Shown here piece by piece: positions 1-57,620 of a DNA stretch of 64,000 bases. Positions within the stretch are counted from its first letter, which is position 1. The number at the start of each line of letters is the position of its first letter. Source of the stretch: Homalodisca vitripennis (taxonomy: Eukaryota; Arthropoda; Insecta; Hemiptera; Cicadellidae); assembly GCF_021130785.1 (NCBI RefSeq), contig NC_060207.1, positions 192,904,001 to 192,968,000 on the forward strand, read 5' to 3'. Position numbers and translations under genes: made by a program. Under the pieces are notes generated by a model, which was given only the letters and a program-made list of their open reading frames with translations, made no database searches and was not told the origin of the DNA.

Positions 1-130
1 CTTACTCACTTATTGAGCTACCAGATAATAGCAAAAGTTTAGGAAAATGTATATATTTTAGCCTATAATTTATTTTTATTTTAAGAATAAAAATGTCATG
101 GAAACTTTAAAGTATAAAAATATAAAAAAT

Positions 131-170
131 CCTTCATCTCGAGTATTAGGCTTCACTAACGCTCAGCCAA
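131..170 (-). repeat. Terminal piece of a dispersed repeat family
   Basis: On the minus strand this reads TTGGCTGAGCGTTAGTGAAG followed by a CTAATACTCGAG-like stretch. The same end sequence, more or less decayed, occurs at 8,868-8,950, 11,805-11,885, 21,077-21,170, 22,226-22,350 and 45,640-45,761. This piece is short and truncated. Confidence 0.5.
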
Positions 171-1587
171 CGTAAATTTACAGTATAACATCCATACATT
201 TGTATTCGTATTTCAATAAATATTTAAGTACACTGTCATGTGCAGTTGTTTTGCAAAAGTAAAAAACTTTTCTGTTTATGAATCACTGATATTATAGCCT
301 GTAAATTGTAAAAGAACTTAAGAAATATCAACAAATAAACATTGACACTCTGCGCTCATAAGGGTTTCTGTCAATAATTAAATAAACAACGATATATTAT
401 TTCAAATGACTGATGTTTGTAGGGTTAGACTTCATGGAATGTGTTCGTTTATTCTAAAACAAGCAGTTAATGGAAATATCAGTGTTTAGTTAGCTCTCAA
501 CATAACGCGGATCTCCAAACCTCGTTTGAAGAGCAGAGAGAGAAAATACTTGCTTAGCTTATTTACTAACCCGGATTGCTCATGGCTATTCCTTGCTATT
601 AGTGTTTTCTGAAACGCTACGTTATGCGTTACTTAACGATCATATTTTTCCTATTATACACAAACTTATTTAAAAAACAATTGTTAATGTAACACGTCAT
701 ACTGTAAAATACTAGTACTTTTTAACTGTAATAATTATTTGAGTTATATGTTTTAAAATAAAAATATTACTAAATCTAAAATTGGGAAAGAACAGGACAT
801 TGAACATAATTTTAAAATATTATTATAGACTACAGATTTATAGCTATTACTTGATGACATATAATGTCATATTTCATAATTTTTGAAGATGTATGAAAAG
901 AACGTTTACCTTTCGTACGTGATCAAGCCAATAAACTGTATAATAAGTATGCTAAAAAAGGTAACCTTTAATTATATTCCTGATCTTAAGGTGTCTTGTT
1001 CGTCATTCAAAGGCATACTCGTATTTTACCAACACTTCAGCCTCCTATATTGATAATGCCAATTACGAGTTGAATGACAAGTATTAATACTTTTCCCTAA
1101 TTCAGGAAAAAATTGTAGCGAACAAGTTTCTTCCCTGTTTTGTGATTCCTGATTATAATGTTTTCTATCCCTTCAGCTACATACCCTTCGAGCTTCCATA
1201 TTTACCATAAAAACTCTGGTATATCTTTCTGTAGTTTCAGATTGTTATCAGGGTTGTTCTAAAAAGAGTGTGATGACTTGTATAACAGATTTGTGATTCA
1301 CATTGCAATAAATATTGTAAACACATTTATATTTTTTTATTTTTTGCGCCTCACTATTGAGAACAATTTTCAGACAACAGATTTTAACTTAAAACAAAAC
1401 TGGTGGCAATAAAAATGCCTGTCTATACGGGTAGTTGAAAGGGGAATATCGGTAAGGTTTTTGGTTTTATCTGACCAGTGTAACGGTATGGCTTTTTCGT
1501 GACAAATCCTGAATTCTTAGTCAGTTAATACGAAAATAACCGCAATTTACTATGTTATCCTATTAAATCATATGTTATTTCACTTTC

Positions 1588-1780
1588 AAACTAGTTATAG
1601 AGAAATCTCTAATTACATTTGGATTTCCTATAATGGATTTACTATTGGGATTTGCTATAATGAAAAAATGTAATCACAAAATTTGTATCAGACGCCAAAG
1701 ATTAGGGCATCAGGAATAAGCAAACGGGATATCAGCGTGATGAAAACACGAACAACGGGATTTGTTCGTGAAGCTTCGCT
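1588..1780. repeat. Block conserved in all three copies (copy A member)
   Basis: About 190 bp that align with 20,402-20,605 and 49,969-50,170. The best-kept core starts at 1,738 (TGATGAAAACACGAACAAC), with only scattered substitutions in the other two copies. In one minus-strand frame the core reads TNPVVRVFI and is open in all three copies. The substitutions are a mixture of silent and replacement changes, so coding is not shown. Confidence 0.6.
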
Positions 1781-2207
1781 TAACCTAACGTAACTGCTTT
1801 ATAAATGCATTTTGATAAAATATTAAAACCATATTTAAACTACAAGCCTCTGTTTGTAATGTTTTAAAACGTATTTCTTAATTCAGTTTTATTAAATTTG
1901 TATACTGATACTATAGTTATTCATGCAGCGTTGAATGATATGTTGCGTAAAATTCAGTTATCTTACAGCTGCCGAAGATACTTGTGTACAGTGATGACTG
2001 TACATATTTCCCAACTGTGACTTTAACGGTTAAAATTGAAAAAAAGTTAGTCAGGCTATCCTATGATACTAATTTAAAAACAAGTTTTTTAACGATTTCA
2101 CTATTCAACTGATTGCATTTAAATTATACATAAAAGTCTTAGGATTGAATATGATAGGAAAATTCCTGACATTTTCCAATTTTAAAGTGACAAATATGTT
2201 ATTTAAG

Positions 2208-2245
2208 ATTATTCTGATTATAAATTTATTTATAATCAGAATAAT
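2208..2245. repeat. Perfect inverted repeat, 18-bp arms, 2-nt spacer
   Basis: Arms at 2,208-2,225 and 2,228-2,245 are exact reverse complements separated by TT. They would form a very tight hairpin or cruciform. The composition is AT-rich but not a simple TA run, so the match is unlikely to be trivial. No flanking element is recognisable. Confidence 0.85.
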
Positions 2246-3189
2246 TTTGTTATACAATGTAATAATAAAATGAAATCTATTTGCACAGCAAGCTGAAATC
2301 TCTAAGGACTGAAATTTTCACACAATAACGTAAGCCTCCATGCGAATATGTTATAGCCAACTAATTAATTAAGTACTTTTAGACTTTTTCCTGTTTTATA
2401 AAACAAATCGTATTACTTGTACAGTACAAATAATTGTGTTCAGCAGCATAACTTGTTTCCATTGAACACCAGAACTATGGATTTTAAAAATGATTACAGA
2501 ATGAAAATATTCAAAATATAAATACGTAGTTTTGTGGGGAAGAACCTTTTGTTCAATATTAATTCAATATAATTCAAAATGTTCTCTTCAAGTATTTTTT
2601 AGATATCTTATATTAATAGAGATCTAATAGTAAAATCTAGCTAGCACAGTAAAACAACAGGAACAAGTATAAATCACCCTCAGATAGAAATAGAAACATT
2701 TATTGCTGCAGAGTTTTGTAGTATACCTAAATATCAAGAGAATATCAAATGATAATATATGAACTGTATGCAAGTACGTATGTAACAAATGTAAGCCTAT
2801 TTTTTACCACATCTTGATAGCACACAGCACTAGCTAGTCGATCTGACTATTCTCAAAATTATAAACAAGCACAATGAGTTAAAAAAATTCTTCTATGATT
2901 CGACAACAGCAGAATTAATCAGATTTAATTGCGTAGTATGAAACGGATAAATCTTGAAAGAGAAAGAAACACAGTTTTAAGTTTTTACTTTATTCAAATC
3001 AATTTACTATTAAGTTATGTATTACTAAAAAATTAGTAACTTATAATAATATATTGATTTATCACATACACCACTTCAATATATGAAAATCAATAATTAT
3101 TGAAAGAAATGTATTTAAGTAATAATAGCAATGAAACATGTTTGTATTTTTTGCCTGATTTCGAATTTTAAATTTATTTCCTTGTTTCA

Positions 3190-3340
3190 TTTAACGGTTG
3201 TAATAAAGGCTGCACACTTAGGTAGCGCCGGTAAGTGCCTTGATCCTTATTGCCATCGTTAACCAGGGGATTTTATTGCCTCTCTTAAAGATTGTAACAA
3301 ACTTTCATTAACACATTGTGCTTAGAGATATTACTTGGAA
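3190..3340. repeat. Block shared by copies A and C (A member)
   Basis: Aligns with 54,430-54,590; both contain a GCACACTTAGG core and a TTTTATTGC...CCTCTTAAAG stretch. On the minus strand both copies read LPKCAAFIT and then reach a stop codon at the same aligned position, with mostly silent differences. Each frame is closed again within about 20 codons upstream, so an exon end is only a possibility. The neighbouring 67-codon plus-strand frame (3,316-3,519) shows no recognisable motif. Confidence 0.5.
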
Positions 3341-5468
3341 ATCACCATATTAAGTCCCGCAAATTTAAATTATACCAGATAATTATATTTAGTTTTACAA
3401 ATATAAATTTTATTTTACATTTTATACCACAGACTGATATAGTTTTGGTCGTAAGCCAACTACAAAATGAAACTCTATTTAGTCAGGTGTATTCACACGG
3501 CTTTAGGTTTAAGGTGTAGATAACATGTAAAACTATATTATGCGAGAATACTAACTTTCATTAAAACATATTTTTTTATAAATAGCACGTTTTTATTTTG
3601 TGCAAACCCTTTACAGCAAACTCATAACATTGGTATAAAAATAACAATATTAGTGGTAATTTATAATAATATTAAACACAATAATAAGTAAGTTTTTTGG
3701 ATATGAATTATAAAAGCGTAGAGTAACTAAATAACGGTTGAAAGTACAGGAGTCTGAGAGGAAAATACTAACAGAGTCTAAGGACGTTATGACGTCTTAC
3801 TGGTAATAGATGTTAAAAAAATACACGGTATTACACTAATATATTTTAAGTAGTGGTTGGCTATTTTTATTAATTGGCAATACACTTCTAGTTTTGGAAG
3901 TCATAAATAATGATAATGTTTGTTATTAACAATGTTGTTGTCAATTTATTTGTTAATATGGTATATTGTGGCCTAGTGTAAATGACACCTGCATTAATAA
4001 CAGAGATCCCTTTTTAGTGAGGATTTAACAGTGAATTTAATAAGGCATAAAAAATTTATTAGGTTTATCTCTGCCAACAATTAATTTAAAAAGTGCATTT
4101 TAAATTATAATTTTTCTTAGTTACATTTTTCTACATTTTATCTGACATTAGATTTATTACATAAATGTAGGAATTCTGCAAATTCAATATGGAAATACCA
4201 CATTTCTTATACTGAGAAATAAGTTCTCAAAATTTTTTATTAAAATTTTTAAAATTTGAACAAATTATTGGATACAAATCATACTGTACTAAAACATCTA
4301 TGCTGTTGTATGAAATATATTGTTTTATGGTAGTAGGAACTAACATAAGGTAAGTTTATGGTTCTCGCCGAGTCTGTCTATTATTACTGCAACAAAGAAT
4401 AAACTTCCGGGTTGGATTGAGGCAGTTAAAGTTTATTAGATAGATTTTAACCAAGTGGTATTAGTTCTCCATGACAACGCTAAAATTTTTAGAGCCTGCT
4501 AAAACAATATATAACAAAAAAATTTATGGAAATATAATGTTTATGTAATCCTGCTAAGGTTTAGAGTTCTCTCAGTTTATTTTGCCATGGTTTAACTTTG
4601 TTGATATAAGTGATTGCATAGGACACAGAGTATTAATATACATCACCTATATAATACTTGATTAACGATTGAATACTGTATAACTACTATAACGTTAAGG
4701 TTATAGAAGTGAAAGAATTTATTTACTAAAATTATTATAAAGAATATACAGCTATGCTGAAGAAAGCTTCAAGTAATTTCTCCCTCATAATTAATTTCCT
4801 TCTTAATAATTTTCTTCCATTTATGACTTAAAATCTTGGTAAGTTAAAACAAAACATACTTCTTCTAGGGATCACAATCCCATTTACTCTACGGATATTT
4901 GATCGTAATGTAAAATGTTTTAGTTTTTTTTATTTAAGCCATAACGCATACGTGTGCCAAATTTATATTTAATAAAGTATCGGAAAGATGAAGTATTAGT
5001 GACTAATGAGTAAGGGGTTTGCCTTTTATATATAAAGAGATAATGTTTTAGCATAAAGTAACACGTTTTTTATAGTTCTTCTATAACTGTCATTAATGGT
5101 TCTATTTTGTTATAATTTTCATTGTTAGTTGGAGATAATTAAATTAATGAGATCTTGAAAAAATGCATTATTAAGCTAACGTCTTTAAAAGATGTTAATG
5201 TCAAGTTTGATGGTTTACCCGCCACTGTTAATGTTTTGTACTTCAATAAACCTGGTGAGAGTTCCTTGACACAGACCCGTGATTTCAGTTATAGCTTACA
5301 TTAATTATTTAAAGCACATTAATACAGAGGACTTATCTTATATGGAGTACTAGAATGAAACTGGTATTATGGTTTTAAAATTAAAATAACTAAAATTTAA
5401 TTTTGGGTCTAATTGCTTCATATAATTACAATATTAGAATTAATATATGTTGTACCCTGCGCGTTTTT

Positions 5469-5596
5469 CAATAATATTACATCCTTGCTTGTTTCATTCC
5501 ATTCGTTTTTTATATAATATAAATATAATGTTGAAGATGGAACTTATTGGTTTTTCTTATTCTATCACTAAATTAAAAATCACAAAACCAATAATT
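5469..5596 (+). repeat. Near-identical direct repeat, left copy
   Basis: A 128-bp stretch repeated at 6,791-6,915 with one 3-nt indel and very few substitutions. The copies lie about 1.32 kb apart. The DNA between them and beyond them is not similar, so this is not a tandem array. The pair could be terminal repeats of a small inserted element or a local duplication. No TG...CA ends are visible. Confidence 0.85.
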
Positions 5597-5847
5597 ACAC
5601 TTTTTATTTTGTCAGGCCTTTAGACCACAAGTCTTTTATCATTAGACAGTTCGCAAAAGTAAATACATTCTGTTTGAAACGCACTGGAATAATTAATACG
5701 AAAGCTGAAATCATTGATCCCAATTCTCAGAGATATAGAATATTTGTTTGAGCAACGTCAACCACAACACAGAACGACAAAGGCAGATAAGACGGCGATC
5801 CTAATCCATTGTTACAATCGGACCGCAGACAATCATCTCTGGACAAC

Positions 5848-5915
5848 AGTTCCACAGTTATACCGCAGATGACACACAAGGCCGTACTTTGTGGCTTAAG
5901 TTACTACTATAATAT
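5848..5915 (+). repeat. Single-copy relative of the 145-bp satellite monomer
   Basis: Contains the string CACAGTTATACCGCAGATGA and GTACTTTGTGG found in every unit of the array at 27,150-28,003. Only one partial unit is present here. It lies at the corresponding place in copy A, so the monomer predates the array. Confidence 0.7.
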
Positions 5916-6790
5916 TCTATGTGTGTGCTTAACATTAAATCTCCTACCTAACTACTGTAATGTTTTATTCTTCTAAGACATGTTGACTGCTGTATAAAAA
6001 TAACAAAATGCACACTCACATACATATAAAGTTTATTTTTTATTCTTCATATTCAAGCAGTCATAAACACGTATCGACTATTTTTATTTTTACATTTTTA
6101 AATCTTCTTTTTCACTACAAAAAACTTTGCGAATTTCTTTTACTCATACATACTAAATATAACATTAGTAAAATTAAATTTGTCTTTAAGATTAGCGTAA
6201 CAAAATGTTTGAAAAAATATATTATTATTATTAGTTTTTTTTTCAATTTCTGATCATTTAAACGAAACAAATTAACTATCATGTTGTTAAAATTGATTTA
6301 AGAACATCCAGATGACTTTTATTAAATACTAATCATTTGCCTTTTTTAATAAGATGTTATTTTGTCTGTAAAAAACACGTGGTTTCCAGTTAAGTCAGAA
6401 TAAAACCTTCCTGTTGACAATACATAAACTATAAAAGATGTCATAGTTCAAAGGGAACATTTTTTTCATTTCCATTACACTTCAATATCCTTTTTGTTAT
6501 AGAATGATAAAGTGCAAAGGTATGTAGACTGTGTGGTATGCTGTCTACTTACCTTCTTAAACAATTGAGGTTACTTTTGGCTCTACAATGAAATCTGAGA
6601 CTAGTCTAGAATATTTATTCCAAAGTAGATCTCAATAATTTTTCAACGTCTTTGTAACTAAAATAAACTAAAGAGAATATTATGTTAATTTGTATGGCAA
6701 TAGTTATATTATATATTTTTAAGCAGTTTCAAAGGCTAAGTCGGGATATTGTAATTTTATTTATTTCCTACGTCGCAATGTATACGAGTT

Positions 6791-6915
6791 CAATAATATT
6801 ACATCCTTGCTTGTTTCATTCCAGTTTTTTATATAATATAAATATAATGTTGAAGATGGAACTTATTGGTTTTTCTTATTCTATCACTAAATTAAAAATC
6901 ACAATACCAATAATT
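6791..6915 (+). repeat. Near-identical direct repeat, right copy
   Basis: Partner of 5,469-5,596. It lies inside a 107-codon open frame (6,682-7,005) that otherwise has no recognisable product, so that frame is not called as a gene. Confidence 0.85.
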
Positions 6916-7881
6916 TATACAGTAATTTTATACAATAATTTATCACAATACCAATCTACAGTATTTAACTATTTTAAGGAAGGATACATTTTACAAATTG
7001 TGTAAGACATTAAAGCCAACATTAAAATTTATGTCATAAACAAGTTTCTCTTACACTCTATATGTCCTTATTTGGAACGTCTACAAGTAGTTTCCATCCT
7101 TAAGAAGTAGTATCCTTCCGTAAGCAGTATGAATACAAGAGTAAAACTGCTGAAAATTAATACAGTTAGCTTTGCATTCCTAAACCAAGGGTATCAAAAT
7201 GAACAGAATAGTTATTTACTTAGGCAGGGTGTGCGATTGGAGATAAAGGGGCAGACAATCTACAACTATCAGTAAAGTGTGCTCTGGGGAGCATTCAACC
7301 AGGATTCCGTGAAGAATCTGAAATATCAGTGCAGCTCCTGATCAATGAAAATATGCCAGCACCTTTATTATCCTATTATTTTAACATGCCCACTTTATAA
7401 CTTTGTCATTCACATTTTCACCTAGAATACGTTGTCATTTACAACTATAATATACCTGGAGCGAAAGAAGTTAACACAATTGAAATATAAATATTAACAG
7501 AATAATGACATGGAAACTCTAGTAATTTCATCATATTCTTGAGATATAAAAAAGATTGATTTTGATCAAAATGTCTACAAAAGTATTTATTCATTAGAAC
7601 TTTAATTACTAATTATTATCATTATTAATATTTTAGTTATAATTATATTGCATTTATTATATTACCACTGCCAACAGAACGCCGCCGTCATATTCTCGTG
7701 ATTTAATAAAAACCTGGGATCAAATTTCTTATTCTCGGTCCTCATTGCTTCAAAGGTGTGCATATTTAAAAACATGGTAATAGTACGCCACACCACGTAT
7801 CACATTATAGGCTTTACTAAGATTGCAAGCGAAATTTAAAATCTGTAACTCGTTTCAAATACAATTATACAGAACAGATAT

Positions 7882-7957
7882 TCTATATATATATATATAT
7901 ATACAGGGTGTGTATATGTGTGTGTGTGTGTATGTGTGTGTGTGTGTGTGTGTGTGT
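7882..7957. repeat. (TA)n/(TG)n microsatellite
   Basis: A run of TA units followed by imperfect TG units, with TATG interruptions. Confidence 0.95.
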
Positions 7958-8138
7958 TTATTATTAAATTAATATTACAGTTAAAGTGTGAATTTTTACG
8001 TCAATTTGAATTGTATTATCTGGATAGGATAAAGTCTATGTTTAACAGTGATTGCAGAAAACAGTTCTAAACAAAATTTGTTCGCTTAGCTTACTCTCAT
8101 AAACTATAAGTGTATATTAAATTAATATATAAATATAT

Positions 8139-8425
8139 TTTTTGTCGCAGATCATATATATGTTTACAAAGAACAGCTGATTAAAAATTGAAAAGTCTCT
8201 TTCACTTAATAACATATGTTTTGATGCAATGCATTTCTTACCGGTATTTCTGTAACCAGTGGGGCGGAAGTCCTGAATCGGGAAAGGGATAAAAAGTATC
8301 CTATAACCTTTCTACAGATCAAGACGAACAAATTAAAAAAAAAATTAGGCGAATCCGTCCAGCCGTTTGTGAGTGATGCTGTTACACACGAACAGTTTTT
8401 CATTTTTATATAATATATATATATA
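8139..8425 (-). mobile_element. Truncated Helitron 5' end, inverted relative to the intact copy
   Basis: Read on the minus strand, this stretch matches the first roughly 280 bp of the Helitron at 58,701 with few differences: the AAAATGAA-type start, the ACTGTTCGTGTGTAACAGCA string, the AAACGGCTGGACGGATTCGC string and the run to TTTTGTCGC. The 65-codon frame at 8,206-8,403 is simply this non-coding Helitron end. The 5' TC terminus has been replaced by a microsatellite. No CTAG end or subterminal hairpin is visible to its left, so it is a truncated or rearranged copy rather than a complete non-autonomous element. Confidence 0.85.
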
Positions 8426-8434
8426 TATATATAT

Positions 8435-8506
<72 letters not shown>
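8411..8506. repeat. (TA)n then (TG)n microsatellite at the Helitron terminus
   Basis: About 26 bp of TA units followed by about 70 bp of pure TG units. The tract lies exactly where the Helitron 5' end (TCTATATATA in the intact copy) should be, which suggests it grew from the element's terminal TA run. Confidence 0.95.
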
Positions 8507-8508
<2 letters not shown>

Positions 8509-8867
8509 GGCAAAATTTAAATTATACAGATGATCTTACTCTAAATATCTTCCCGCATAATAATTCTGATTTTTGTTAATTGAGTTAGGTTTCATAGTTG
8601 GGTTTAGAGAACACAAGTTCCGGAGAGTTATAAATTGTATTAAACGCTAGAGTGCGCTCAAGTCAAACATTGTCACTGACATTATATTTTTACTTTCCAC
8701 TCTATCATTTTTAACTTTACTCTATGAATAAATGTGTTAAAGGTTAAATATCATATAATTTTACTATATTTTTTTTCTAAATTACTTATTCTGCAATTTC
8801 TTGTTACCAAGATATTTTGAAGCTTCATCCGAAACTTAAAATACATAGGTAATTTTATGTTAAAGAC

Positions 8868-8950
8868 ATCGTGCGGACAGTCTGAGAGAAATAAAAATTT
8901 GCCAGTCTCTCGAGTAATAGGCTTTACTAAATCTCAATCGATAAAAGTTG
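8868..8950 (-). repeat. Dispersed repeat relic
   Basis: Minus-strand member of the TTGGCTGAGCGTTAGC-ended family. It keeps the GGACAG...AGAAAT...CCAG...CTCGAGTAATAGGCTTTACTAA order seen at 45,640-45,761, but the end motif is decayed. Confidence 0.5.
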
Positions 8951-11804
8951 TTTTCTAGGCCTTATTAAAGAACTTTTATGTTAATTCCGAAAAGGAGAAC
9001 CCAGTTAACAGCTAAAATTTTACCCTGGCCCTCTGTACAACTGAAAGTGATCACTAGCCAATACTAAAGTAAACGAACTATACAATGCTTGGAATACTGT
9101 TTTCATCAGTGTTATATCTTAAGGTCACTCTGTATAAAATTGTTGAGAGAAAATACCTAAAATGAGATAAATGTTTCAAATAACTTATTACATTATCTTT
9201 AGTGCGTAATTAACCATATCGACACCTTAACGATGACATATTGAAGTAAAGTTTACTAATGTTTGCAACAAACGTTAAATTTCTCGTTTATCTGTATCTT
9301 ACATTTTATAGAATTTGGTAATCAATAATAATATAACTTCTCTAATAAAAAATCTTAAAACATGTGTGAAAAGAGTAAAAAATTATTATTTTAATGGCAG
9401 TTGTAATTATGGTATATAATATTTACTTTATTTTTCCAAATTAATATTGGAGAATGCCAAATTATCCAATTATTTTCTGCTGGTATAAATATTTCTTACA
9501 TAAAATATGTTCTTTTAAAATACAAATGTATAAAATAGTAAAAAGTTTCTCAATTATGTTTGTAACAGTAAATATTGAAGTGACGAGATGTTATAACCTA
9601 GAGACATCAACACTAACACAGGTTTGGTTTTCACTCACGTGGTTTACACTGAATATTTTCAGTCCATTGTGAGTTTTTATACCTGCAATGGAATCGGTTA
9701 AGCCATCCATATAGGCTTTGTAACACTAATTTTATTCTACCTTTTTTGTCATCCTTTTTTAACTAGACAAAGATGATAGCTAGCAAAGCAAATTCAATTT
9801 TTCCTAATCTATTATTTAAAAATAGTCCTCCTAAGATTTAATCTATTTATCCTTACTTTACTAATACCCTATTATTTTCAAGATCGAACAAAAATATATG
9901 TACTCGCAATTATCAATCATATCTCGCAGACGTGTCTGAGCGCTTGACGGGAGCAAACATTACTCATTAGTTATGTCAGTATTGTGAACACATAATCTAG
10001 ATATAACAGAGGTACTGTTATTGTGACTATAACACACATATGCTACCAATCAGCCTTCTGTTAGTATTCAAGTACCGGAGGCAGTGACACAACAAAGCAT
10101 TAAGAGGCTTTGCAGCTGCTTGTTCTAAGAGAACAAATAAAACTTGATAAAATCATATTGAGCCTGTACACACAGAACAACAAAAATATTATGGTTGATT
10201 ATTTTACGCAAATTAATGGCATAACACTTCTCCAACAACATTTTGGGTAGATAAGCTAGGTAATATATTTTATTATCATCCGGCGACAGAGTGTAGAAAT
10301 ACAACAAAATAGCAGTCAAGACTCTTAGCACATTAAGGGATGAATGAGTTTATCACTTAGATTTATGATTCGATGATGCCACATTGAGTGGCGCCAGTTA
10401 AACCCATCATTGTATTTGCAGACATAGGAAGTAATAATGGCAAGTTACTGAAGCAATAGCACCAATACGTCGCTTGATATTAGACAGCGACATCGCCGCC
10501 AGGCACAAATACGTGATCTGAACTCAGAACTTTGCTGCCGATAGTCTACAACTTAATTATGGCTCAAATAGCAACCTTTCTGTTGTGATAAATGTAAAAC
10601 CAGTTTGTCTGTATTTTTTATATCTGTTCGTGCTACAATGTACCTTTATAAAAAGAAATATTTTATCATTTCTAGTAAAAAAATAATTCTTCTTTGCAAT
10701 AAAGCATTGCGTAAACTGGTTTATGCTGAATATCAGCAACAACTTTTAATTTATCTGTAGTGAGTAATTGAATGGGTGCATAGATTTTATAGGATTTTTT
10801 ACGTAGGGATCATAACCTATAACTCCACTAGATAACATTTTCGACTAGTACTTTATCCATAGATAATAATAAAGAGGTAGGAAAAGAAATACTGAGAGAA
10901 GCCGCAGTATTTTGTAAGCTTTAGAAGGATTTTCCCGGCCAACCACTGAAATAGATCGATTATATCACCAACCGCCATCCTAGGCGACCTTAGTTTGTCA
11001 CATTTCTTCACATATGACTGAAATTCTGTGACTTTATTGCTGGTAAATAAGTATGTTAGCTATTTATTAAACACTTCCTTAGTAATTTAATATTTAACTA
11101 ATATTTGACAGTTCTCAATAAAATTGTCATACTTTCATTTAAGAGAAATAATCACATATAACTCCTAAGCGCCTACGAAAAATTTCAAATTTCAATAAGT
11201 GCAGTAAGGAAAATAATAAAAGTTTACACCCCCTTTACTGAGTGATAGGTTTAAACGATGCCACGACGCTCAAACAAATTCCATGGCTGGACTTGCACAA
11301 TCATAGAACTTATTCTTGTGTATGTACTAATGAAGTTTGAGGCAATTATAAGAGATGATCTTTTTTGTAATATTTTGACGCATTACCCATTCACATTTGT
11401 ATTTATTGAGTAATATTGTACCGTAATAGTTAAATAATGGAAGTTTCGGTGAGTTAAGGAGAGTACTAAAACGCAAGAAATCGCTGAAACTAAAACTTGA
11501 GTTGGCTTTCCGACATCTAGAATTGGCTTTCCATTATAACATATTTTTACTGCATAAATACGCTACAAATGTTATTATGTCACGTGTTAACAGTTTTGTG
11601 TTTTTACTCAGCTTGTTTACAAAAAATATTTATTCTGTTATTTTCTCTTTGCCTTCTCGGTTACCCTAAGACTAATGTAATTATATTTGCTAACGTTCAG
11701 CAAACTCATAGGGTATAAAATGAACCATAATCAAACTCTGAGCCTATATAGAAATGAAGCTTTCAAAATTTACAGTCTATAGGTCAGTTATGTTTCGAAA
11801 TATC

Positions 11805-13060: not shown

Positions 13061-13080
13061 ATGCTTAACATGTTAAGCAT
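13061..13080. repeat. Perfect 20-bp palindrome
   Basis: ATGCTTAACATGTTAAGCAT is its own reverse complement. A second partial copy of the arm follows at 13,090-13,100. It sits at the end of an 88-codon AT-rich frame (12,827-13,093) that shows no recognisable domain and is not called as a gene. Confidence 0.9.
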
Positions 13081-45761: not shown

Positions 45762-46679
45762 TAACTGATCATAGTTGATATATTTATTTTCAGATACTCT
45801 AAATGAGTGAAACGTTTTCCGTCTGTCACTGTTAGAGGTCACAAGACAATTTAATTATATTTTTATTCAAAAACTTACATTTCTTGCTCTTCTCTCAGCA
45901 CTTTTTACTAAATACACGAAATATGAATTACTATAGTTATAAAAACTATTTATGAGACCTATATATCTTTTAATAAAAGAAATATAAATTTATAACCAAG
46001 CCATTTTAGTTTAAGTTATTTTCCAATTAGACACGAACTTATTCATTGAAGTGAATAAACATTGGTCTATGGGGAAGTAATTAAGCATAGTGTACAACAC
46101 CTGCTAGGCAGGCGAATGTTGTATTTAGAGTCAATCTCAGAAGCGCTTAGGTAACTGTGAATTGGTCTTTGTGGTCCTGCGCAATATTTATAAGAAAAGA
46201 TAAGCCTGCTAAGACTTCTGAGGATAGACATGGTGACTTTATGCCGGTTGATATAGCTGCACAACTTGGTAGTGTTTGTGTGCAAACTCATTTGAATTGT
46301 ATGTGGTACGGTTTAACCAATTGAATATCTTGATCGTACTCAATAAAATAAACAAAGCGTGTACAACAAACTATGCAATTTGTAAACTAAAATCAAAAAC
46401 TAAAAATTAAAATGAAATTTATGTTTTCAATAAAGTATTTATGTATTCATGAGAAAGCAATCACCCTTTCTATCTTTGCATAGGCCCCTACAAATATTTT
46501 ATTTCCATTCTTTTTTAAAATACATTTAATATAAGTGTGAAAAACTTCGTGTCATACATTTTTTTAAAGTAATTTTGTGAATTTGAAATTTTAAACAGTT
46601 GGTTTTAATTTTATACAGAAATTCTCCCTACTCGACACTTTGTATAAACTTGAAGGTATCTTTTAATTCTCAAATACAG

Positions 46680-46915
46680 TAACACGATGTCAACACGTGT
46701 TTCAAGACGCAATAAACCAGGCGAAGAGGAGAACCTAGCTTTTTATTCTATCTTGCTCTTCCTCTTCTACAAACATAAAGCCGAGGCTTTTCAGCTTGGC
46801 TGCGATCTGAATAGCTCAGCAACTCGTGTTTACTGTTTCGTGGATTATATCAACACCAACTGTTGCGGTTTGGCATCAGAACACCACGTTCCCAGCCAGC
46901 ATAACTACCTTTAAC
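46680..46915 (+). other. Balanced-composition ORF, product unknown
   Basis: A 75-codon frame from ATG at 46,687 to TAA at 46,914, with close to half GC in DNA that is otherwise below a third. It begins MSTRVSRRNKPGEEENLAF. No domain, signal peptide or membrane segment is clear. It has no detected counterpart in copy B. It could be a host exon, a captured fragment or part of an unknown transposon. Codons are more evenly used than in the chance frames nearby, which is why it is listed. Confidence 0.25.
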
Positions 46916-47199
46916 CGGTTCCAAGTTATGAATCAAATTATAAATATGCTCCTATCTTCTGTTGGGTATTAAAGTAATATTTCTGAAAAGCTTGAGCTAA
47001 GACATCATAAAACATCCGTTTGGGATTTAATCTAAAAGTCTGCACAAAATAAATACTTTAGGGGGTGATTTTATCCCGGTTGATATTGCAAAACTTAATA
47101 GTTTATTATAAATGATAAATACTGCCGATAATATGCATAGGACACTAATGTTTACGTTTTAAAAGTATAATATGACGATAAAAGAAATAAAAACAGTAT

Positions 47200-47940
47200 G
47201 GGTGGAAAATAGGGTCACTAAGAGAGACCTGATTGAAGTTGAGAAGAGGGTTGTGAGGAAAAATGACGTTAAATCTCTTATTGAGCGTTTTAATGATCAC
47301 AGAACAGTATGGGAGGAAAGTTAATCTGGAAATTCAGGGTTTTCCGGTTCGTGGGGAAAAGCTGGGAGACGAGAAGATTGATGAAGTGGTTAGAGACCTA
47401 GAAAGTGATACAAATGTTCCTTATCTTTCCGAGCAAGTTCAGAAACTGCTAAAATTGCAGTGCTATAGCTAGGGACGCATTGTTATTAGTTGTAAAGAAG
47501 GAATGGTTCTCCGATAAATCTTCAGGTCAGAAGATTTACTTTAGTGAAAACTTAACCTATTTCTGCTAGGAACTTTAAAGGAAGCTAAAACAAGAGCGAG
47601 GATACACAGATCGATAAGGGATGTTACATTCTAGCCCTCTTTATTGATTTGAGTAAATCATTTGATACAGTTGACAATGGGAAGATGGCTAAGGTACTGG
47701 AAAAAATGGGAATTACTAGACCTCCAATAGCCTAGTTGATTTCTTACCGGAATAACAGGCCATTTAGAGTGAATATCGAGCAAATATATAGTGAAAATCT
47801 ATTTTACAGTCTGGGTGTTTCATAGAAAAATTATTTGCGGGCAGTAATTTTTCATCTTTACATAAATAATATATTCAAAGTTATCAAGAATATTAAACTC
47901 TGGGGTTATGCAGATAATCTACGATTTATATAAGAGATGT
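47200..47940 (+). pseudogene. Internally deleted LINE: ORF1 piece joined to reverse transcriptase piece
   Basis: The left part reads QYGRKVNLEIQGFPV followed by an acidic helix, typical of LINE ORF1 proteins, with a coiled-coil-like basic stretch in another frame just upstream (47,213-47,320). From about 47,635 the reverse transcriptase begins: LALFIDLSKSFDTVD, then a KVLEKMGI stretch, the VIFHLYINNIF region, and GYADN at 47,904-47,918 where an active enzyme has (F/Y)ADD. The endonuclease between ORF1 and reverse transcriptase is absent, so there was an internal deletion. Several stops and frameshifts follow. A short trace lies at the corresponding place in copy B (18,330-18,385). Confidence 0.82.
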
Positions 47941-48069
47941 AGCCTCGATTAATGTTTGATATATAATATACAATAATACACATTTTAACACTTTTTTATT
48001 TCTTTTATTGCGTACAATGTACATTCCGAATTCGATGAATTCATCTTCCAATCTTTGATTGTTGTATTC

Positions 48070-48545: not shown

Positions 48546-49968
48546 TTTTATTTTCAAATTCCCAAACCTCAATGCATTGATGATAATTTTTAATTAGCAG
48601 GAAATGTATGAGTTTTTCCCTCGATTGGATGAAATAACTCTCTTCATCACCTCTGTCACAGAAATATTCAGTGTTTCACTGATGGCTAATTCAAGTTTCA
48701 TTATACGTAAGTAACTAACGAAGGAGTGCTAAATTGTAATAGCATAGTAAAATGTAATAATTTTAACATACTAATAATAAAAAAGTCATTTTAACTTTTT
48801 GAATTGGTGTCATTAACAATTATTTCAGTTTAAATAGCCCAATGAATCATTTATTTCAATTGTATTACCTGTCGGCACTAAAACTCAAGGTAATTTTTAA
48901 TTATAAAATAGTCTAAGGGAGTGGATATTTAACGATATAACACAATAGGCGTAAGCAATATACACTGTAAAAGGTTCGTATAAAATTTAGTTTTGGTTGT
49001 TTAAAAGTGCGTAATATTTATTTGTGTTTCAAATCGTAGCTTACTGCAAACAATGAAACAAAATACAACACGGCTAATTTACAAATGTATCCTCATAATA
49101 GGAATATAAGTTTAATCTACATTCGGTATTCTTTTACTCATAGAATATTTTTAGTACAGCGTTACAAATTCCAAGAACTTTTAGCCAAAAAACCAAAATA
49201 TAAACTGAGTACTTTTAGAATAAACAGAATACTTCTATTCAAATCCTAGAAAAAGACGAAAACTTATGGAATAGGCTTGTTAGGCGAGCTTGGCACGATG
49301 GGTGGGCCTGCACGTCTAGAACAATAATATTCGCAAAGAACATTAGAGTCATAATGTCTTTTTCTGCTACACATTTTATTATACAGCCATAGGAAATCGT
49401 TTAAACTCTTTTTTCGTGGAGCTATCATATAATACATATATATATTTATATATGTACTCATTAGACTAAAACTAATCTTATACCATTATTTTTTTGTCCC
49501 AGCCGTAATAAAATCCTTGCTACAACAATGCAGATTTTTTTAATACAAAAACATTTTTATATGCACCGTGCTGGATGTTAATCCGATTCAAAATTCTGGA
49601 ATGCTGTTATCTGCTTTGATCAAGTTCTCGTATTTTCACATACAGGGATTTTCCGGAAACCTGAATGTGTATAGGGTATCATCTAATTGAGTCTCAAAGT
49701 AAGTTAGATTTACGTTAGAACTGCACACAAACAAACACTCTTAAAGGTTAAAAATCTGTTACAGCTTCTCTTTAAGATCGCCCAGATAAATAACTCAAAC
49801 TAAACAAATTACTTTAACTTAATTTTTTATAATAACAAGTGTTGTAATAATAGTTTAAAACATATTCATGTGCTATTGGTACACAAGCAATCCTCCAAAG
49901 TTTGGGCGTTTGATATGAACATGACCACAATAGACCATTTTACAATTGGGAATCCAATAATTAGTTTG

Positions 49969-50170
49969 CAACTAGTTCTAGGGGATATCACTGGTTACGG
50001 ATAGATTTGCTACAATGGTTTACTATCGGGATTTGCTATAATGAAAACATTTAATCTCAAAATGTATATCTGATGTCAGATTAAGGTATCCGGAACTATG
50101 CAAGCGGGATATCAGTGTGATGAAAACACGAACAACGGGATTTGTTCGTAAAGCTTAGATTTAACTAAGG
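49969..50170. repeat. Block conserved in all three copies (copy C member)
   Basis: Matches 1,588-1,780 and 20,402-20,605. The core starts at 50,118 and is identical to copy A over TGATGAAAACACGAACAACG and the following GGATTTGTTCGT. Confidence 0.65.
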
Positions 50171-53100
50171 TAACTGCTTTATACATACATACACTTTCAT
50201 AACATTTTAAAACGTGGTATAATATTCAAGCCTCCATTTTAATATTTCAAACTTTATTTTCCATTTATTCATGTTTAAATTATGGTTGTTTCAATATGGT
50301 TTTAATCGACAGTTATTGAGCTTCATATATGCCTTTGATAATTAAATTTGATTTATTACTATACCAATTTCAATTATTTGAATATATTTTATGTTTTAAT
50401 AATAAATAATTTTGTAAATATTTTTGAAGTAGGCTACATCTAGATTTATTGAAAGGCATTGAAAAGAATCAGGAATTGTAAGGACAATGCCAAGTGTGTT
50501 TTAATGTAAATATTATATTATTAAACATACTTAAATTTGTATTTTCAAATTATCTATTTTTCAGGAATAATCTAATCTCTTAAAACTGTAACTATGATAA
50601 TAAAATTTGTGTTTTCCTAGTAGATGTATCGGGAAGAATTGTAAATATTTAATATTAACTACAGAAGAATTGCATTAGTTCGGTTCAATCAATTTTTTGC
50701 ACAAAACAAACAAACTTACGTTACATGAAATTTGACGAAGAATATTTAATATAAGCGAGAAAACAAGAAATTGCAATTTTAGCCAAACTTAAGAACTCAC
50801 TAATACTATCGTCTACAGTAATTTATTCTACCTCAATGTATCGTATGACTTATTTTCCGAGCTTTCTGAAGAGCCAAGAGAGCCTCGAAAATTTGTGTAT
50901 CCGTTCAAACAATATCTCGAAAAAGGTCTGACCTACGGACTTGAAAGTTTGAATGAAGTATCATATTGTTATGATACTTTGGGAGAATCTTCCAGATAAA
51001 CAAGCTAACCTCCGATACAAAGAGATAATAGGTAAATAGAGCCACTGGAAAATAGAGAGCTGTCAGTAGGTTAAGTGTATTTCTTTGATCCACCCGGTCG
51101 CTCCTCCCATTATATGAGCGGTGGGTGGGCACTGTGACCCTTCTCTACACATTTAGTAAGTTTTGGACTTCTCCACTTGAATTCTCTGGTTACATCAATA
51201 ACCTTTTAACGAGCTGTAGCGACGCAGCGAGTTGAGTTGACCTCCAAAAGTGAACTTGTAAAGTGACGAAATTATTGGTAATACTTGTAATCGTGACAAA
51301 TGGATTGTATTAATAATTATTGACTGTCAAACTGTAAATAGTCTCATGTGTAATTAGATAGTTAATTTTGTTAATAATGGATTGTGACAGAATAAATTAG
51401 TGGCAGTCATTGAGAATCGTAAAGAAGTACTTTATTAAAGCCACCCTAGTTTTAAGTAAATATATATATATTTATTTATTTATTTTTAAGATTAATAAAT
51501 ATTTAGTAAATTCAATATTCGCTGAGTTTTTTATTGAATCTGCAACAATATCGATAGGCAACATGATGGAGTTCGATGGTGAAGAGTTTTGCTTAGCGTT
51601 AGTGAATAGTTTAAAATTGGACCTATGGATAACCATGATATCATTTTCAACGCGCACTCATTTTATATTACCTAATAATTAGTAGTCTAGGTTTACAAGA
51701 ATGCAGTGCTGCTAGATTAAAACAGATGGTTAGTAAGTATACTGGTAAGAAATATATCTTACCAACAATAGTGGTAACATAAGAAACCATTATTTTACAC
51801 ACTACAAAAATTTACTTTAATATTTTTGTTATATATGTAATAAAAGTTAAAAAGAATATTTGCCCAGTCCCTTTCGGAAAGGCCTTATGAATTGGAACCT
51901 ACAATAGTTCTGAAAGGTTTAAATACGTAACGGGCATTTTACTGTCAAACTTCGGAACATTTAGTTTTATTTGAAAACTCTAGTAGAATAAAAAGAATGC
52001 TAAAACAATTCAAGTCAGTTGTTTTGAAACAAGTTACTTGAAACTGCCATGACACTAAAAGTTAAAGCTCTCCTTTCTGCCCAGGAGTTGCATTGCGATT
52101 ATAATATTTGTAACTTCATTTGGGTACTGTTAACTATTCTGTAGCGAGTAGGTTCGACAAAATGTGAAAATCATTACTCCCGCTTTTTATATGTGTATGA
52201 AATGTGAACGTTTTAAATTTTCCTTACTTCATAGCTACAGGAAATAAATATGTATAGATCTCTATAAGTTCTGTTCAAAAAGTATTTTAGTTATATGACA
52301 ATATACTAAGTACGTTAACAACTATCGGATAAAGATTGTAATTTTATAGTGTCATTTGATAATACAACGTTTTAAAATAAAATTTTAATAATCAGTATTT
52401 TGGAATACAAATAATTTAAACAGAGTCCGATATAGGTAGTGAGTTCATTTTTTCTAGCTAAAAATATTAAAACATAAATATTTATGGGCTTATATAATTA
52501 AGCAGTTTAAACCAGTGATGGTTTAGTTTATGTATCTGTCATTTTCAAGACCTTTAAAAATGTACACAATTATAAAATTCGGTCCCCGTTTATAATTGTA
52601 TGGTTATAGTTCAAAAGCAATCTAGATCAGTAAAATAGATTGGAGAACTATTTAATAGGTAATTTCGTGTAAGGTCGAATACTTATAAACAATATTAACG
52701 ACAATATCCTTTGCTTATTCTGCAGTATTCAATATATTGCTTGCATAATTGAGAATAGACGTTTACAATCTCCAATATGTATGAAATAATGCTGAAAACA
52801 CCTTGCAGTATAAAGTGTTAAGAAGCTTTGTAGAACGGATCTGATCCTAAGATCTCTTGAGTGGCAAAAAGCTCAAAAGTCTCCTTGTCCGCGGCACTCC
52901 ACAACAAAACGCGTCTCACTCCAGTGAAGTTTTGTAGGATTGAATAAAGAAGCTCATTGTACTATCCATTTTTAAGAGGCTGTACTTAAGTAGGTAACAA
53001 TTATTTCGTGTTTCTTGTTATAAATTAGTTTTTTGTTGGTTTTTAAAAACCTTCGTCGTCAATTATTTTGATTCCAAAGTCCTTAAGTATTAACATATTC

Positions 53101-53904
53101 GCTTGAATCGGTAGTGTAATTTGATTAATATACTGAGTTTAATTAAATTAAAATAAATACCATGAATTTATTTTAATTACGCGTAATGAAATTGTGCAAA
53201 ATAAATCAAAATAATTTAGTATTACGCCTTTAATACTCAATTTAAAAAAATTATGATATAGATAGAAATAATGCTATTTTAAACCTTAAATTACATTTAG
53301 ATTGGAAAATATATAAAATTTGGTTTAGAAATGTAAGTTAAATTTGAATATTAAATAAAGAGCATGTATTTAGCAGCTTTAATTTTTCTGTTTAAGTGAA
53401 AGTTGAAGTTTCATTGAATCACTCTTTCGTTTATTTCAGCGGAGCCATTAATTTAATTTTGATTTGATGTACAAAGATAGACTCAGTTTGTATTCCAAGT
53501 AAATATAGACGGAATAAATTTAATACGGAGTGTGATGTGGACAACACATCTTGGTCAAATAAATGGGTGCTTAGCCTAAAGCTCCTAATATTCTCCAGCA
53601 ATCCTTAGTAGTTTAAACAATTACAAATCTAATTCGACTAGTCATACAGTCTAATCGAACCCAGATAGATAAATCTATGTAAAGGATAAAAATGCGATAT
53701 TGCACGGTGACTATAACTATACCGTAATCCTACAGTTGTGAAACATGTGATACGTTGAAAGAGACCGATTTTGTACTATGGCTATGAGTCTTTTGTTATG
53801 CCGTTTGGTGAACATGTATTTTAGGGTAGCTCACTGATATTGCATTAGTCTCACTATTATAATACAGATGCAGTGAAGTATGAAACGCAATATATAAGTT
53901 TAGG

Positions 53905-54285
53905 AAATGGCAGGAATTACCAGGTCGTTGGGGGCAGAGAGCTCCCAGAGACCGGAAGTTACCAGAGGTTAGTAGCTGTTTGAAGCCAAAGACCGGGATG
54001 TATGTCAAATTCTCGTGAGCAAGGCTGGAAACTATCAGAAGCTGGGAGCTATTAAGAAGCTCAGAACTCTCAGAGGTTAAGAGCTTTAAGGTTTCTGGAG
54101 CTTCAAAATGCTGAGTGCTACCAGAAACCGGGAGCTCCTAAAGGTCTGAACCTCGTAGAGCCCAGGATCTCCCATAATTTGAATTCTGCCAGAGGACAGC
54201 TGCTGCCAGAGCCTAAGAACTGAAGAATTGTTAAATGTCTCAGCTTTCAGAGACAACGAGCAGCCTGAGGTCGGAAGTATAAAGA
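53905..54285. repeat. Degenerate GC-richer short-period repeat region
   Basis: Loose recurrences of CCAGAG(G/A)CC...GGAGCT-type words (for example ACCAGAGGTTAG, ACCAGAAACCGGGAGCT, GCCAGAGGACAGC, GCCAGAGCC) suggest a very decayed minisatellite. The minus-strand frames at 53,796-54,008 and 54,086-54,331 lie in it and are not recognisable proteins. Confidence 0.5.
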
Positions 54286-54429
54286 GTCTCATGATGTTTA
54301 AGGAATCAGATGGTTTAGTGACGGACTTCAAGCATTAATGAAGCTGTATTGCCTATTAACCACATCGAAACTCTTCCTGAACCTTGAGGCTGGTGAGGGA
54401 AAACATGTTGTTTTTAATTTCTTTCGTTA

Positions 54430-54590
54430 CTTTATTTGATAGGTGTAATAAAAGCAGCACACTTAGGCAGCGGCGTTAAGTACTCTCAGTTTTATTGCTA
54501 TTGCATCAATAACGAGGAGGTTTTATTGCGCCTCTTAAAGGGTGTAGCAAACTTGTATCAACACAATGAGTGTACAGGTATTACCTCACA
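54430..54590. repeat. Block shared by copies A and C (C member)
   Basis: Counterpart of 3,190-3,340; see that entry for the shared minus-strand LPKCAAFIT reading and its stop. Confidence 0.5.
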
Positions 54591-55255
54591 AGTAAGGGGG
54601 GGGGTGTAAAGGGGATCGGTCTCTACTTAAAAAAAACAAACAAACAAAAAACCTTTTATTTATCAAATTAATCCTGATGTTCAATTGATTGTAAATTTTT
54701 TACAAAATAGTAAATTATACTTATCAACAATGATATTTAACAATATATTTTTATGCAATACAAATTACTCTGTATAAGTTGTAGTTCGTAGTGTGATAAA
54801 TTATGAATTTTCGTATTGTCGAAAAAATTAAGTTATTATTTAACCAATTTAAAACTATATATTTAACATTATAGCTGTGAGTTGGTATATATTTTTGGAA
54901 CGGTTGACTTTTTACTTTTTGAAAATAGTTAAATCATTTTTTTAAATTATAGTTTTGCATAGTTATTTGGCTATGCAATGTTGTTTGGTTAGTAAACTGA
55001 TTCCTAAATCTATTCCTGATTCCGCAGCCTTATTACTACGGTTATGGTCGTGGTAATGTTTAAGTATATGTATGTATGTATATATGTATGTTTAAGTATG
55101 TCATACAAATATTCCTGATCCATGATATGAATAAGCATTTTAGTCTGTAAACATATATGCACTATTTTACAACAAATCACAAGGAGTTAGTCATATTAAC
55201 GACGTAGGCGTTTAAATTTGCAGTCCATAACCATTTCCAAATGTGTTTACTTCTC

Positions 55256-55300
55256 CAGGAATCGAACCTATGGCCTCTAAAACCATCCGAGAACGACGGG
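55256..55300 (-). repeat. tRNA-like B-box relic
   Basis: The minus strand ends GAGGCCATAGGTTCGATTCC, a B-box-like sequence in the same layout as the next copy about 115 bp downstream. Confidence 0.4.
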
Positions 55301-55371
55301 AAATCAGATATTTCAAGGCCATAGGCGTTTAAATTTACTGTAAAAAACAGTTTGTAAATTTGTATGACCTC

Positions 55372-55431
55372 CAGGAAACGAACCCATGGCCTCTCGGTTA
55401 GAGAGCCGCAGACTTACACCTGCCCTACGGT
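55372..55431 (-). repeat. tRNA-like region, probable SINE relic (copy C)
   Basis: The minus strand carries a CTCT/AGAG stem around a 7-nt loop (CTAACCG) followed by GGCCATGGGTTCGTTTCC. This resembles the anticodon arm and T arm of a tRNA. The D arm and acceptor stem cannot be formed convincingly, so a functional tRNA gene is not called. The matching piece in copy B is 24,337-24,386. Confidence 0.45.
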
Positions 55432-57620
55432 TAAGGTCGTAGTGTATTTAAGTACAGAATACAAATCTAAGTGTTCCATGATATTAATCATGTTTATAAC
55501 ATTGTTAGTGGTGATAGTTCCATTTAACTTAAATGCAATACGTTTGTAACGTAAGGTTCTCGTAATATAGTTTATGATTCTCTCAAACTGTGTCAATTAC
55601 TGCCTCAATAAAGCATACACTTCCGTTTTGAATTGAGGTAGTAAATGTATATTTGACGGATTTCAGTGTGGTACTACATCTTTATCACCACATAATCTGA
55701 TAAGACTTGCATGTGCTGGCTGTACGTAAACACTTTTTTTCCCAATTAAATTTGCCAGTAACATTCAGATATTGCAACACTGCTAAGATAAGTCATGCAA
55801 TATTATTTTAAAAATTTTAACATTAAAATATATCACAAAATCTGATTAAATAAATAACGTGTTTGAGTTAAACAGCATATGAACTTTTATAAAATTTGTT
55901 ATTGAATATTAATTGAAAATTAAAGTTATGTGACAATAATGACTTTGCATTTTTTTTTAACGAATGTTTACAAGGCTGTTCTATTATCTTAATTACACTT
56001 AAGAAACACATACCAATACTTACACCCTCTGTTTTTGTGAGGCCTTTCGATATTAAAAGTAAAGCAAGGCTATCGAAAGGCCTTACAAAGTAAAAGTTTT
56101 AAGTATTGAATTGTGTGTTTTATATGTAATTAAGTTAATAGTAGCCAATACAATGTCCATCTTCAACATTTCTGTTCTATTATCTCAATCTCCCTTTTGT
56201 CTTTACAATTAAAAAAGTTATATAACAATACAGAAGATTTTGTACTAAGACCATCTCTTGTGACATAAAAACTATTATTCCTATTTTTGGACGTTTAAAA
56301 CAGTATTTCAATCAAAAATAATAACAATTAATACTTATTACTAGTAAATAGCAACAATTTCAAACATATAAACTTAATGTCGTATGACCTTGCTAATCGT
56401 TCTTATTTCGTCTTAAATCCTTACCGATTTTTTTATCGAGACAATAATTCTTAGTTCGGATTCAAGAAACCAATCTTGAAGGCTAAATCAATTTGACGTT
56501 TACATATAACTACATAAACTATATAACTAATATCTTTCAGTCTTATAAAGATTCATTTTTATCATTAGAAGGGCTAAATTATTAAGAGATTTTAAAAAAT
56601 AATAAAAATCTATTTAGTAATATATATAGTTTAAGCAGATTTTCCCTCAATTTAGACTCTTTTACCCAAATTGTTATTTATTATAATAAACCTTTTTACC
56701 CTTAAGCCAGTTCAAGAACTGAACCTATACTTCCGAAAATATTTACAGCTTCCATATTAGTTACAATCAACATATAATAATTAATGGTTTCCTCCTCTTA
56801 CAGTTACAAATAAGAATGTGTGCTATGTTCCATATATCGTTACAGTAAAGTGTCCTTTAATACGAGTATGTCACGACATCCCAATAGTCAGTTAAAAAAG
56901 GTCAGTCAATAAATAAACAACAATGTTTAAAACTATCCATCACCCCAAAGTACTGTTGTTTTGTCAGTTACCAAAGAGTTGTACGTTTATCATTGTAATG
57001 AGTCCTTGGAGTCTCATCTAAGTGACGTAATGATATTAAATATTTTATTAAGGCTGTATTCATTCCATAGCTTTTTAATCTTTATTCAGAACCAAACTCT
57101 TATGCATGAGTGCGTGAAACCTGTTTAAAAGATGTACTACTATAAAGTTACATTATATGTACGCTATATGTTCCAATAAAACATATATATTTTAATACGA
57201 GAATAATAATTGTATATTCCTTTATTAAGATAAGAAAGAACTTAGTAATGAAAAAGTTTCACTATTTATCCACAAGACGTATAATTTTGTTTTTCTCATT
57301 AATAAACAAACCGCTGATAACTGTTGATAGTTGACTACATAGAGCCTGTTTTATTGCCAAGTTAATTGAAAATGTTGCCAATGTATTTTCCAAGGTGGTT
57401 ATATTTGTTATAAGAGTTAACTTTAAGCGTTTGTATTATTATTATTTACATATTATGCTATACGTTGCTATATTTTATTCTTTAATATGCTATAGTGTTT
57501 TATACGTACTATAGTGGATATACTGTGTCGTATAACAACCATCAATTATATTCAGACATATATGGGTCTTCGCTTGACACGAGCAAACGTTAATCATCAG
57601 TTATGTCAGACGTGTTAATA

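Follow-up and report, generated by a model that had tools for sequence, protein, structure and literature searches.

Tandem noncoding copies in insects, when old, usually decay past recognition, and the segmental duplications usually catalogued are recent ones. Multi-kilobase tandem units are also known as macrosatellites, such as the 7.3-kb tRNA array of 9–43 units at human 1q23.3 (PMC4041453). Within the Hemiptera, the family of bicycle genes has been reported from aphids, phylloxerids and coccids (PMC9168663).

Here, we describe a tandem array in a 64,000-nucleotide stretch of contig NC_060207.1 (positions 192,904,001 to 192,968,000 of the forward strand; hereafter, the window) from Homalodisca vitripennis, the glassy-winged sharpshooter, a leafhopper that spreads Pierce's disease. 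We judge it probable, at roughly 0.75, that the array goes back to an old tandem segmental duplication, in which a gene-poor ~19-kb segment was copied, and that it is decaying outside a few islands that are constrained and perhaps regulatory. An old triplication of a gene-poor unit of this size, broken by inserted elements, had been proposed in a preliminary description, and our analysis supports it.

Three copies, all on the plus strand, can be delimited: the visible tail of copy 1 (1505–5956), copy 2 (10099–27027, an aligned span of 16.9 kb) and copy 3 (29261–56927, an aligned span of 27.7 kb, enlarged by insertions). Plus-strand BLASTN joins copies 2 and 3 through 11–12 collinear head-to-tail blocks covering 8.5 kb at 68–76% identity: the best chain has 12 blocks and 3397 bits at E ≤ 1e-5, whilst at E ≤ 1e-7 there are 11 blocks with 8497 aligned bases and per-block ungapped identities of 0.676–0.757. 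The minus-strand comparison of the same copies yields two blocks (105 bits), and copy 3 reversed without complementing, used as a control, yields a single match to copy 2 (46 bits). All eight two-way pairs of positions named in the preliminary description lie inside these plus-strand blocks and in one order, so that their collinearity stands; their distribution among the copies is revised, in that every one of them pairs copy 2 with copy 3.

The tail of copy 1 (1.5–6.0 kb) matches copies 2 and 3 in the same order but more thinly, with three blocks (396 bits) to copy 3 and two (240 bits) to copy 2, against 107 and 70 bits, respectively, on the minus strand and no matches at all in either reversed control. 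Few blocks support copy 1, since its upstream portion precedes the start of the window. The blocks are found at 1505–1932 (E 9e-58 and 7e-35), 3166–3336 (E 2e-24), 4263–4759 (E 4e-14 and 4e-7) and 5742–5956 (E 2e-22), and the third of these includes a collinear match, additional to the two-block chain, of 4263–4598 with 24401–24766 in copy 2 (E 3.8e-7). The first of them belongs to the three-way block already noted in the preliminary description, which is real and extends over 1505–1932, 20201–20857 and 49769–50420. The spacing, put earlier at about 19 kb, measures 18.8 kb from 1517 to 20338 and 19.2 kb from 10099 to 29261. Beyond copy 3, a short plus-strand segment at 57536–57658 matches 9907–10028 (66.7% over 123 columns; E 1e-9, and 6e-11 in a second comparison) and may be either unit-junction sequence or the first piece of a fourth copy; downstream of it, within the window, there is no further convincing block of a fourth unit.

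Some non-collinear matches are also present and stem from repeats, either simple or dispersed; 8495–8943 with 11317–11781 is one such match. An inverted pair at 8137–8423 and 58697–58974 (94%) and a short repeat family at about 8.8, 11.8, 22.3 and 45.7 kb are both dispersed and lie outside the main chain. The self-alignment is thus collinear, rather than made up of scattered matches only, and the near-empty reversed controls rule out chance or common repeats as the source of the collinearity. Adjacent copies in one orientation and collinear order, a similarity above chance and only a few non-collinear matches from dispersed repeats are among the marks of a tandem segmental duplication.

Copy 3 spans 10.7 kb more than copy 2 because of inserted sequence, which accounts for the difference. 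On the minus strand, the extra sequence at 30178–33692 (3513 bases, where copy 2 has 276) contains a decayed LINE-type reverse transcriptase, with an RVT_1 match at about 31245–31502, also on the minus strand (E 1.5e-9). A second minus-strand stretch, 36412–40330 (3917 bases against 216), contains an ORF at 37110–37553 carrying a GIY-YIG domain (PF01541, E 1.1e-6), which we take to be Penelope-like. Microsatellite and a 75-bp minisatellite are contained in the extra sequence at 42234–47987 (5752 bases against 1567), where the RVT_1 match near 47.6–47.9 kb reaches only E 0.052. The last stretch, 52209–55154 (2944 bases against 708), contains a degenerate minisatellite-like region and the first exon of the predicted gene LOC124354421, the protein of which maps at 100% both to 53.9 kb and to a Helitron at 60.0–63.2 kb; this gene is an example of copy 3 extra sequence joined to a Helitron. 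Copy 2 has extra sequence of its own at 24884–26586 on the plus strand (1701 bases, where copy 3 has 562), with a DUF5641 match, presumably BEL/Pao-type, at about 25679–25960 (E 9.3e-28). It ends in a plus-strand 145-bp tandem array (27146–28002; 5.9 units, 98% alike) whose counterpart in copy 1, at 5742–5956, is single and diverged.

With the window so rich in other elements, the unit itself might be a giant element, transposable or viral, of the 15–20 kb class, repeatedly inserted or tandemly amplified, and Polinton-type elements have a size range that includes that of the unit. We consider this improbable. Reading through copy 2 (10.0–25.0 kb, six frames) reveals no polymerase, integrase, ATPase or capsid domain, with the proviso that weak domains could escape such a scan, and when the window is aligned to itself at E ≤ 1e-5, no long inverted repeat pairs the unit ends. 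Three adjoining head-to-tail copies with one period would be unusual for insertions, and two patterns taken from the conserved islands described below have no exact match in viral contigs.

The copies are about 72% identical, and their divergence is put at about 27%. Copies 2 and 3 differ by about 0.26–0.44 substitutions per site, the Kimura two-parameter (K2P) estimate being 0.35–0.44 in two long alignments and the Jukes–Cantor (JC) estimate 0.26–0.38 over 353 three-way columns. Judged by these values, the triplication is old and its copies are strongly diverged. Neutral DNA that can still be aligned at such an age is unexpected in insects, which counts against the explanation that we favour. 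The divergence bears also on a long array of satellite or macrosatellite type in which homogenisation would be continuing, with the window at one end of it, a reading that would suit the tandem order, the regular period and the possible fourth unit at 57.5 kb. Such an array would consist of many near-identical, homogenised units, whereas the three copies visible in the window have only the identity given above, carry private kilobase insertions and show no sign of homogenisation outside the islands; we regard this reading as very improbable, and the very large satellite-like unit suggested in the preliminary description does not fit what the window shows. That haplotypes were placed side by side in the assembly has next to no probability: an earlier H. 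vitripennis assembly does have 8.6% duplicated BUSCOs, but a divergence of about 27% with many private insertions is far from the heterozygosity of about 1.2–1.7% given in the same account (PMC8496328). The 68–76% block identity excludes haplotype duplication, the check on which had been advised beforehand.

Identity along the copies is patchier than expected by chance: among 164 windows of alignment the variance is 21.5, against 10.0, with four windows at 46/50 or better where 0.1 would be expected. A few islands of about 70–220 bp have changed far more slowly than their surroundings. Island E2 (12674–12794 in copy 2, partner 34620–34741 in copy 3) is identical at 117 of 122 columns, against a background of 72%; its alignment contains one single-base indel, conservation is similar in several frames and on both strands, and its GC content is 0.45 in surroundings of 0.28. 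Island E3 (14260–14404, partner 36068–36214; 147 columns) is the second best-scoring conserved segment of its alignment and E4 (15663–15884, partner 41177–41397; 222 columns) the best of its own. Island E5 (20530–20597 in copy 2) is kept in the three-way alignment, within 1690–1810 of copy 1 and 50055–50180 of copy 3, with 59 of 74 columns invariant against a fraction of 0.59 outside, for an island chosen by eye. Of eight RNA foldings of E2 and E5, not one clearly surpassed its shuffled versions (best z −1.75).

We infer that the islands are constrained noncoding elements, and the odds are about even that they would serve as cis-regulatory modules or as promoters for noncoding transcripts. The high identity of E2 could also stem from gene conversion.

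The preliminary description had offered a tandem gene family with small exons as the other way of accounting for the array. No protein-coding gene belonging to the units themselves can be recognised. Codon-substitution scores over 15 and 25 codons fall inside the shuffled range, the best (7.4 for 25 codons, in E2) being at the upper end of shuffled maxima of 3.1–7.9. Conserved ORFs bounded by splice sites are no more frequent than in a reversed control (286 against 318), and those scoring above 5 number four against three; the top candidate (6.9, minus strand) is again in E2. Island translations (501 and 218 amino acids) have no match at E ≤ 10 in a protein database that includes the predicted proteins of H. 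vitripennis. Above cut-off, Pfam scans detected transposon domains only, although the read-through scan overlooked the GIY-YIG domain found by the ORF search and weak domains could escape it; below cut-off were PF22365, PF22609, LLGL, DUF7859 and RVT_1, and on ORFs GDH2_N, RVT_1 and Exo_endo_phos. Searches for tRNAs and Rfam families found none at gathering thresholds, and a lax Rfam scan of 10.0–25.2 kb returned five rows, all under gathering scores, led by a match to the microRNA family mir-3136 on an inverted repeat (20056–20135, minus strand; 34 bits against 86, E 5.5e-4).

Neither the coding and splice tests nor the protein searches thus lend support to such a family, with the reservation that power is low for short exons: exons of 25 codons, when simulated, often fail to outscore the background. 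A tandem family of fast-evolving genes, each split into many micro-exons like the bicycle effector genes of aphids, with introns and promoters that can still be aligned and exons too short and divergent to see, would accord with this low power for single short exons, with the tandem layout in a hemipteran, with conserved spots within long alignable noncoding sequence and with the two top scores of E2. We nevertheless think it unlikely, given the scores and searches above and the presence in the islands of indels that are not multiples of three; the part of the bicycle account used here, moreover, does not mention leafhoppers or Cicadellidae (PMC9168663). A small exon within E2, or small fast-evolving exons in the units, may exist.

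On the reading that we prefer, a segment of ~19 kb, lacking any recognisable protein gene, was multiplied head to tail into at least three copies, presumably through unequal crossing-over or through duplication during replication. The copies diverged thereafter and acquired the retroelement, GIY-YIG-element and minisatellite insertions observed in them; the bulk of the shared sequence is decaying, whilst a few islands have changed far more slowly. More tentatively, and with the odds against it, the unit might be an unannotated noncoding locus (a lncRNA together with its promoter, or else a regulatory domain), duplicated in tandem and maintained by selection over tens of millions of generations, E2 and the three-way island E5 forming its working core and the rest of the 19 kb being free to decay. 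A triplication that can still be aligned, and whose islands are almost unaltered, offers a within-genome comparison from which functional noncoding elements of a leafhopper could be identified. Among titles and abstract openings on segmental duplication in H. vitripennis or noncoding tandem duplication in leafhoppers, searched by topic rather than by gene name or coordinates, there is no paper on the array.

How, then, does the array compare with known systems? With macrosatellites, it shares a multi-kilobase tandem unit mostly free of ordinary protein genes, but it differs in having three visible, strongly diverged copies without signs of homogenisation or of variation in copy number. The likeness to the bicycle loci of aphids is that of a hemipteran locus that could hide micro-exon genes, although the leafhopper units give no exon signal and leafhoppers do not figure in the part of that paper drawn on here (PMC9168663). 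Older than the recent segmental duplications of the usual catalogues, about 27% diverged and without a detected gene, the array resembles low-copy tandem segmental duplications in its adjoining head-to-tail multi-kilobase copies, each of which has diverged independently and gathered insertions of its own.

The 64,000-base window (GC 0.318) was aligned to itself and then, at more sensitive settings, unit against unit. All eight pairs of blocks from which the preliminary description had proposed three diverged tandem copies lie inside plus-strand matches that keep a single order. Copies 2 (10,099-27,027, +) and 3 (29,261-56,927, +) are linked by a chain of 11 blocks covering 8,497 aligned bases, with ungapped identity of 0.676-0.757 per block; at E<=1e-5 the best chain comprises 12 blocks and 3,397 bits, against a single 46-bit match when copy 3 is reversed without complementing. 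At the same threshold the minus strand yields two blocks (105 bits). Copy 1 (1,505-5,956, +), whose upstream part would precede the window, has collinear matches to copy 3 (three blocks, 396 bits) and to copy 2 (two blocks, 240 bits), with no matches to either in the reversed controls. The spacing of about 19 kb also holds, at 18.8 kb from copy 1 to copy 2 (1,517/20,338) and 19.2 kb from copy 2 to copy 3 (10,099/29,261). A 123-bp match (9,907-10,028 / 57,536-57,658) marks either the boundary between units or the beginning of a fourth; no convincing further block was seen past 57,658 within the window.

Could the copies be haplotypes of one locus? About 27% of sites differ between them, against a heterozygosity estimate of 1.2-1.7% given for Homalodisca vitripennis (PMC8496328), and the copies are therefore not haplotypes. 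The same source gives 32.87% GC for its assembly, which is distinct from that holding the contig of the predicted gene LOC124354421.

Copy 3 spans 27.7 kb and copy 2 16.9 kb, the difference arising because the gaps between aligned blocks are unequal. Extra sequence in copy 3 lies at 30.2-33.7 kb (3.5 kb versus 0.28 kb in copy 2; reverse transcriptase domain), 36.4-40.3 kb (3.9 versus 0.2 kb; GIY-YIG domain), 42.2-48.0 kb (5.75 versus 1.57 kb; a microsatellite and a 75-bp minisatellite) and 52.2-55.2 kb (2.9 versus 0.7 kb), whilst copy 2 carries extra sequence of its own at 24.9-26.6 kb, which includes a DUF5641 domain. Beyond these Pfam labels, we take the inserted elements to be of LINE, Penelope-like and BEL/Pao type. 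At the end of copy 2, a 145-bp array (27,146-28,002; 5.9 units, 98% alike) grew from sequence present once in copy 1 (5,742-5,956); nothing corresponding to it was seen in copy 3. An inverted pair with one member on either side of the three tandem copies (8,137-8,423 / 58,697-58,974; 288 columns, 94% identical) is probably a young MITE-like element. An imperfect palindrome at 20,056-20,135, which scores 34 bits against the mir-3136 family model (cut-off 86 bits; E 5.5e-4), is probably a MITE-like hairpin.

To the right of copy 3, an open reading frame at 59,249-63,649 runs for 1467 codons without a stop and encodes Helitron_like_N and PIF1 helicase domains (Pfam), suggesting that this Helitron may have inserted recently. 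Its protein is 100% identical to predicted H. vitripennis protein LOC124354421 over 75% of the query, and the window is almost certainly the locus of that prediction. Residues 1-21 of the predicted protein map to 53,907-53,969 and residues 21-1110 to 59,978-63,247; the sequence fits an exon at 53,907-53,967 that is followed by a GT donor, and a second one starting at 59,979, after an AG acceptor, and running to a GT donor past 63,247. The predicted gene takes a short exon from the extra sequence of copy 3, putatively spliced to the long Helitron frame. No exact match to its final 27 residues occurs within the window, and the predicted last exon falls outside it. That exon resembles part (54020-54073) of a degenerate, minisatellite-like stretch at 53,907-54,300 (61% of 18 residues, E 0.03), weakly hinting that related sequence may lie further right.

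A tandem gene family with small exons had been suggested for the copies; tests of three kinds revealed none. When 64 ungapped runs (4,729 bases) were scanned by codon-substitution likelihood, the highest 25-codon score was 7.4, inside the range of best scores from 30 column-shuffled sets (3.1-7.9, mean 5.0); over 15 codons the highest was 5.3, the shuffled maxima being 4.3-6.8. ORFs that are conserved in both copies and bounded by splice sites or by start and stop codons came to 286, fewer than the 318 of the reversed control, with four versus three scoring above 5 and none in either above 7. Joined translations of the conserved islands (two queries, compared with candidate proteins limited to about 276-877 and 120-382 aa) matched no protein at E<=10. 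Six-frame read-through against Pfam, spanning the window outside 34.5-36.3, 41.3-42.2 and 57.2-59.2 kb and one minus frame of 25.0-29.5 kb, returned only transposon domains above cut-off, and overlooked the GIY-YIG domain that an ORF-based search detected. Detectable exons are absent; simulated 25-codon exons (omega 0.2) reach a mean score of only 5.7, so isolated small exons can hide.

Identity between copies 2 and 3 is more uneven than chance would produce. In 164 windows of 50 columns it has a variance of 21.5 against 10.0 expected, with four windows at 46 or more identical columns (0.1 expected) and eight at 27 or fewer (0.6 expected). The ten windows with at least 85% identity average 38% GC and the remainder 29%; over all windows identity and GC correlate weakly (0.15). 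Sharpest among the islands is E2 (12,674-12,794 / 34,620-34,741), which keeps 117 of 122 columns (p 5.6e-10 at a background of 0.75, uncorrected for the roughly 8,500 positions). Both top candidates of the codon and bounded-ORF scans fall here, on opposite strands; conservation is alike in several frames and on both strands, there is one single-base indel, and RNA folding is no better than in shuffles. A second island, E5 (20,530-20,597), persists in copies 1, 2 and 3 alike: 59 of its 74 columns are invariant, compared with a fraction of 0.59 outside it (p 1.4e-4, for an island picked by eye). Outside E5, three-way distances are 0.26-0.49 and, over 353 columns, unique changes are fewest in copy 3 (24); copy 1 has 51 and copy 2 has 42.

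The reading with the best support is that a gene-poor segment underwent tandem segmental duplication long ago and is now mostly decaying, with a few constrained noncoding islands. Tandem order, period, divergence, insertions and patchy conservation are all observed; the copies would presumably have arisen by unequal crossing-over or replication-based duplication. At an insect rate near 3e-9 per site per generation, the event would lie some 60 million generations back. The islands may be regulatory. E2 contains TGACCT(T)TGACC, CAGGAAGT and TTCCAAGAA, candidate motifs resembling binding sites of nuclear receptors, ETS and STAT factors.
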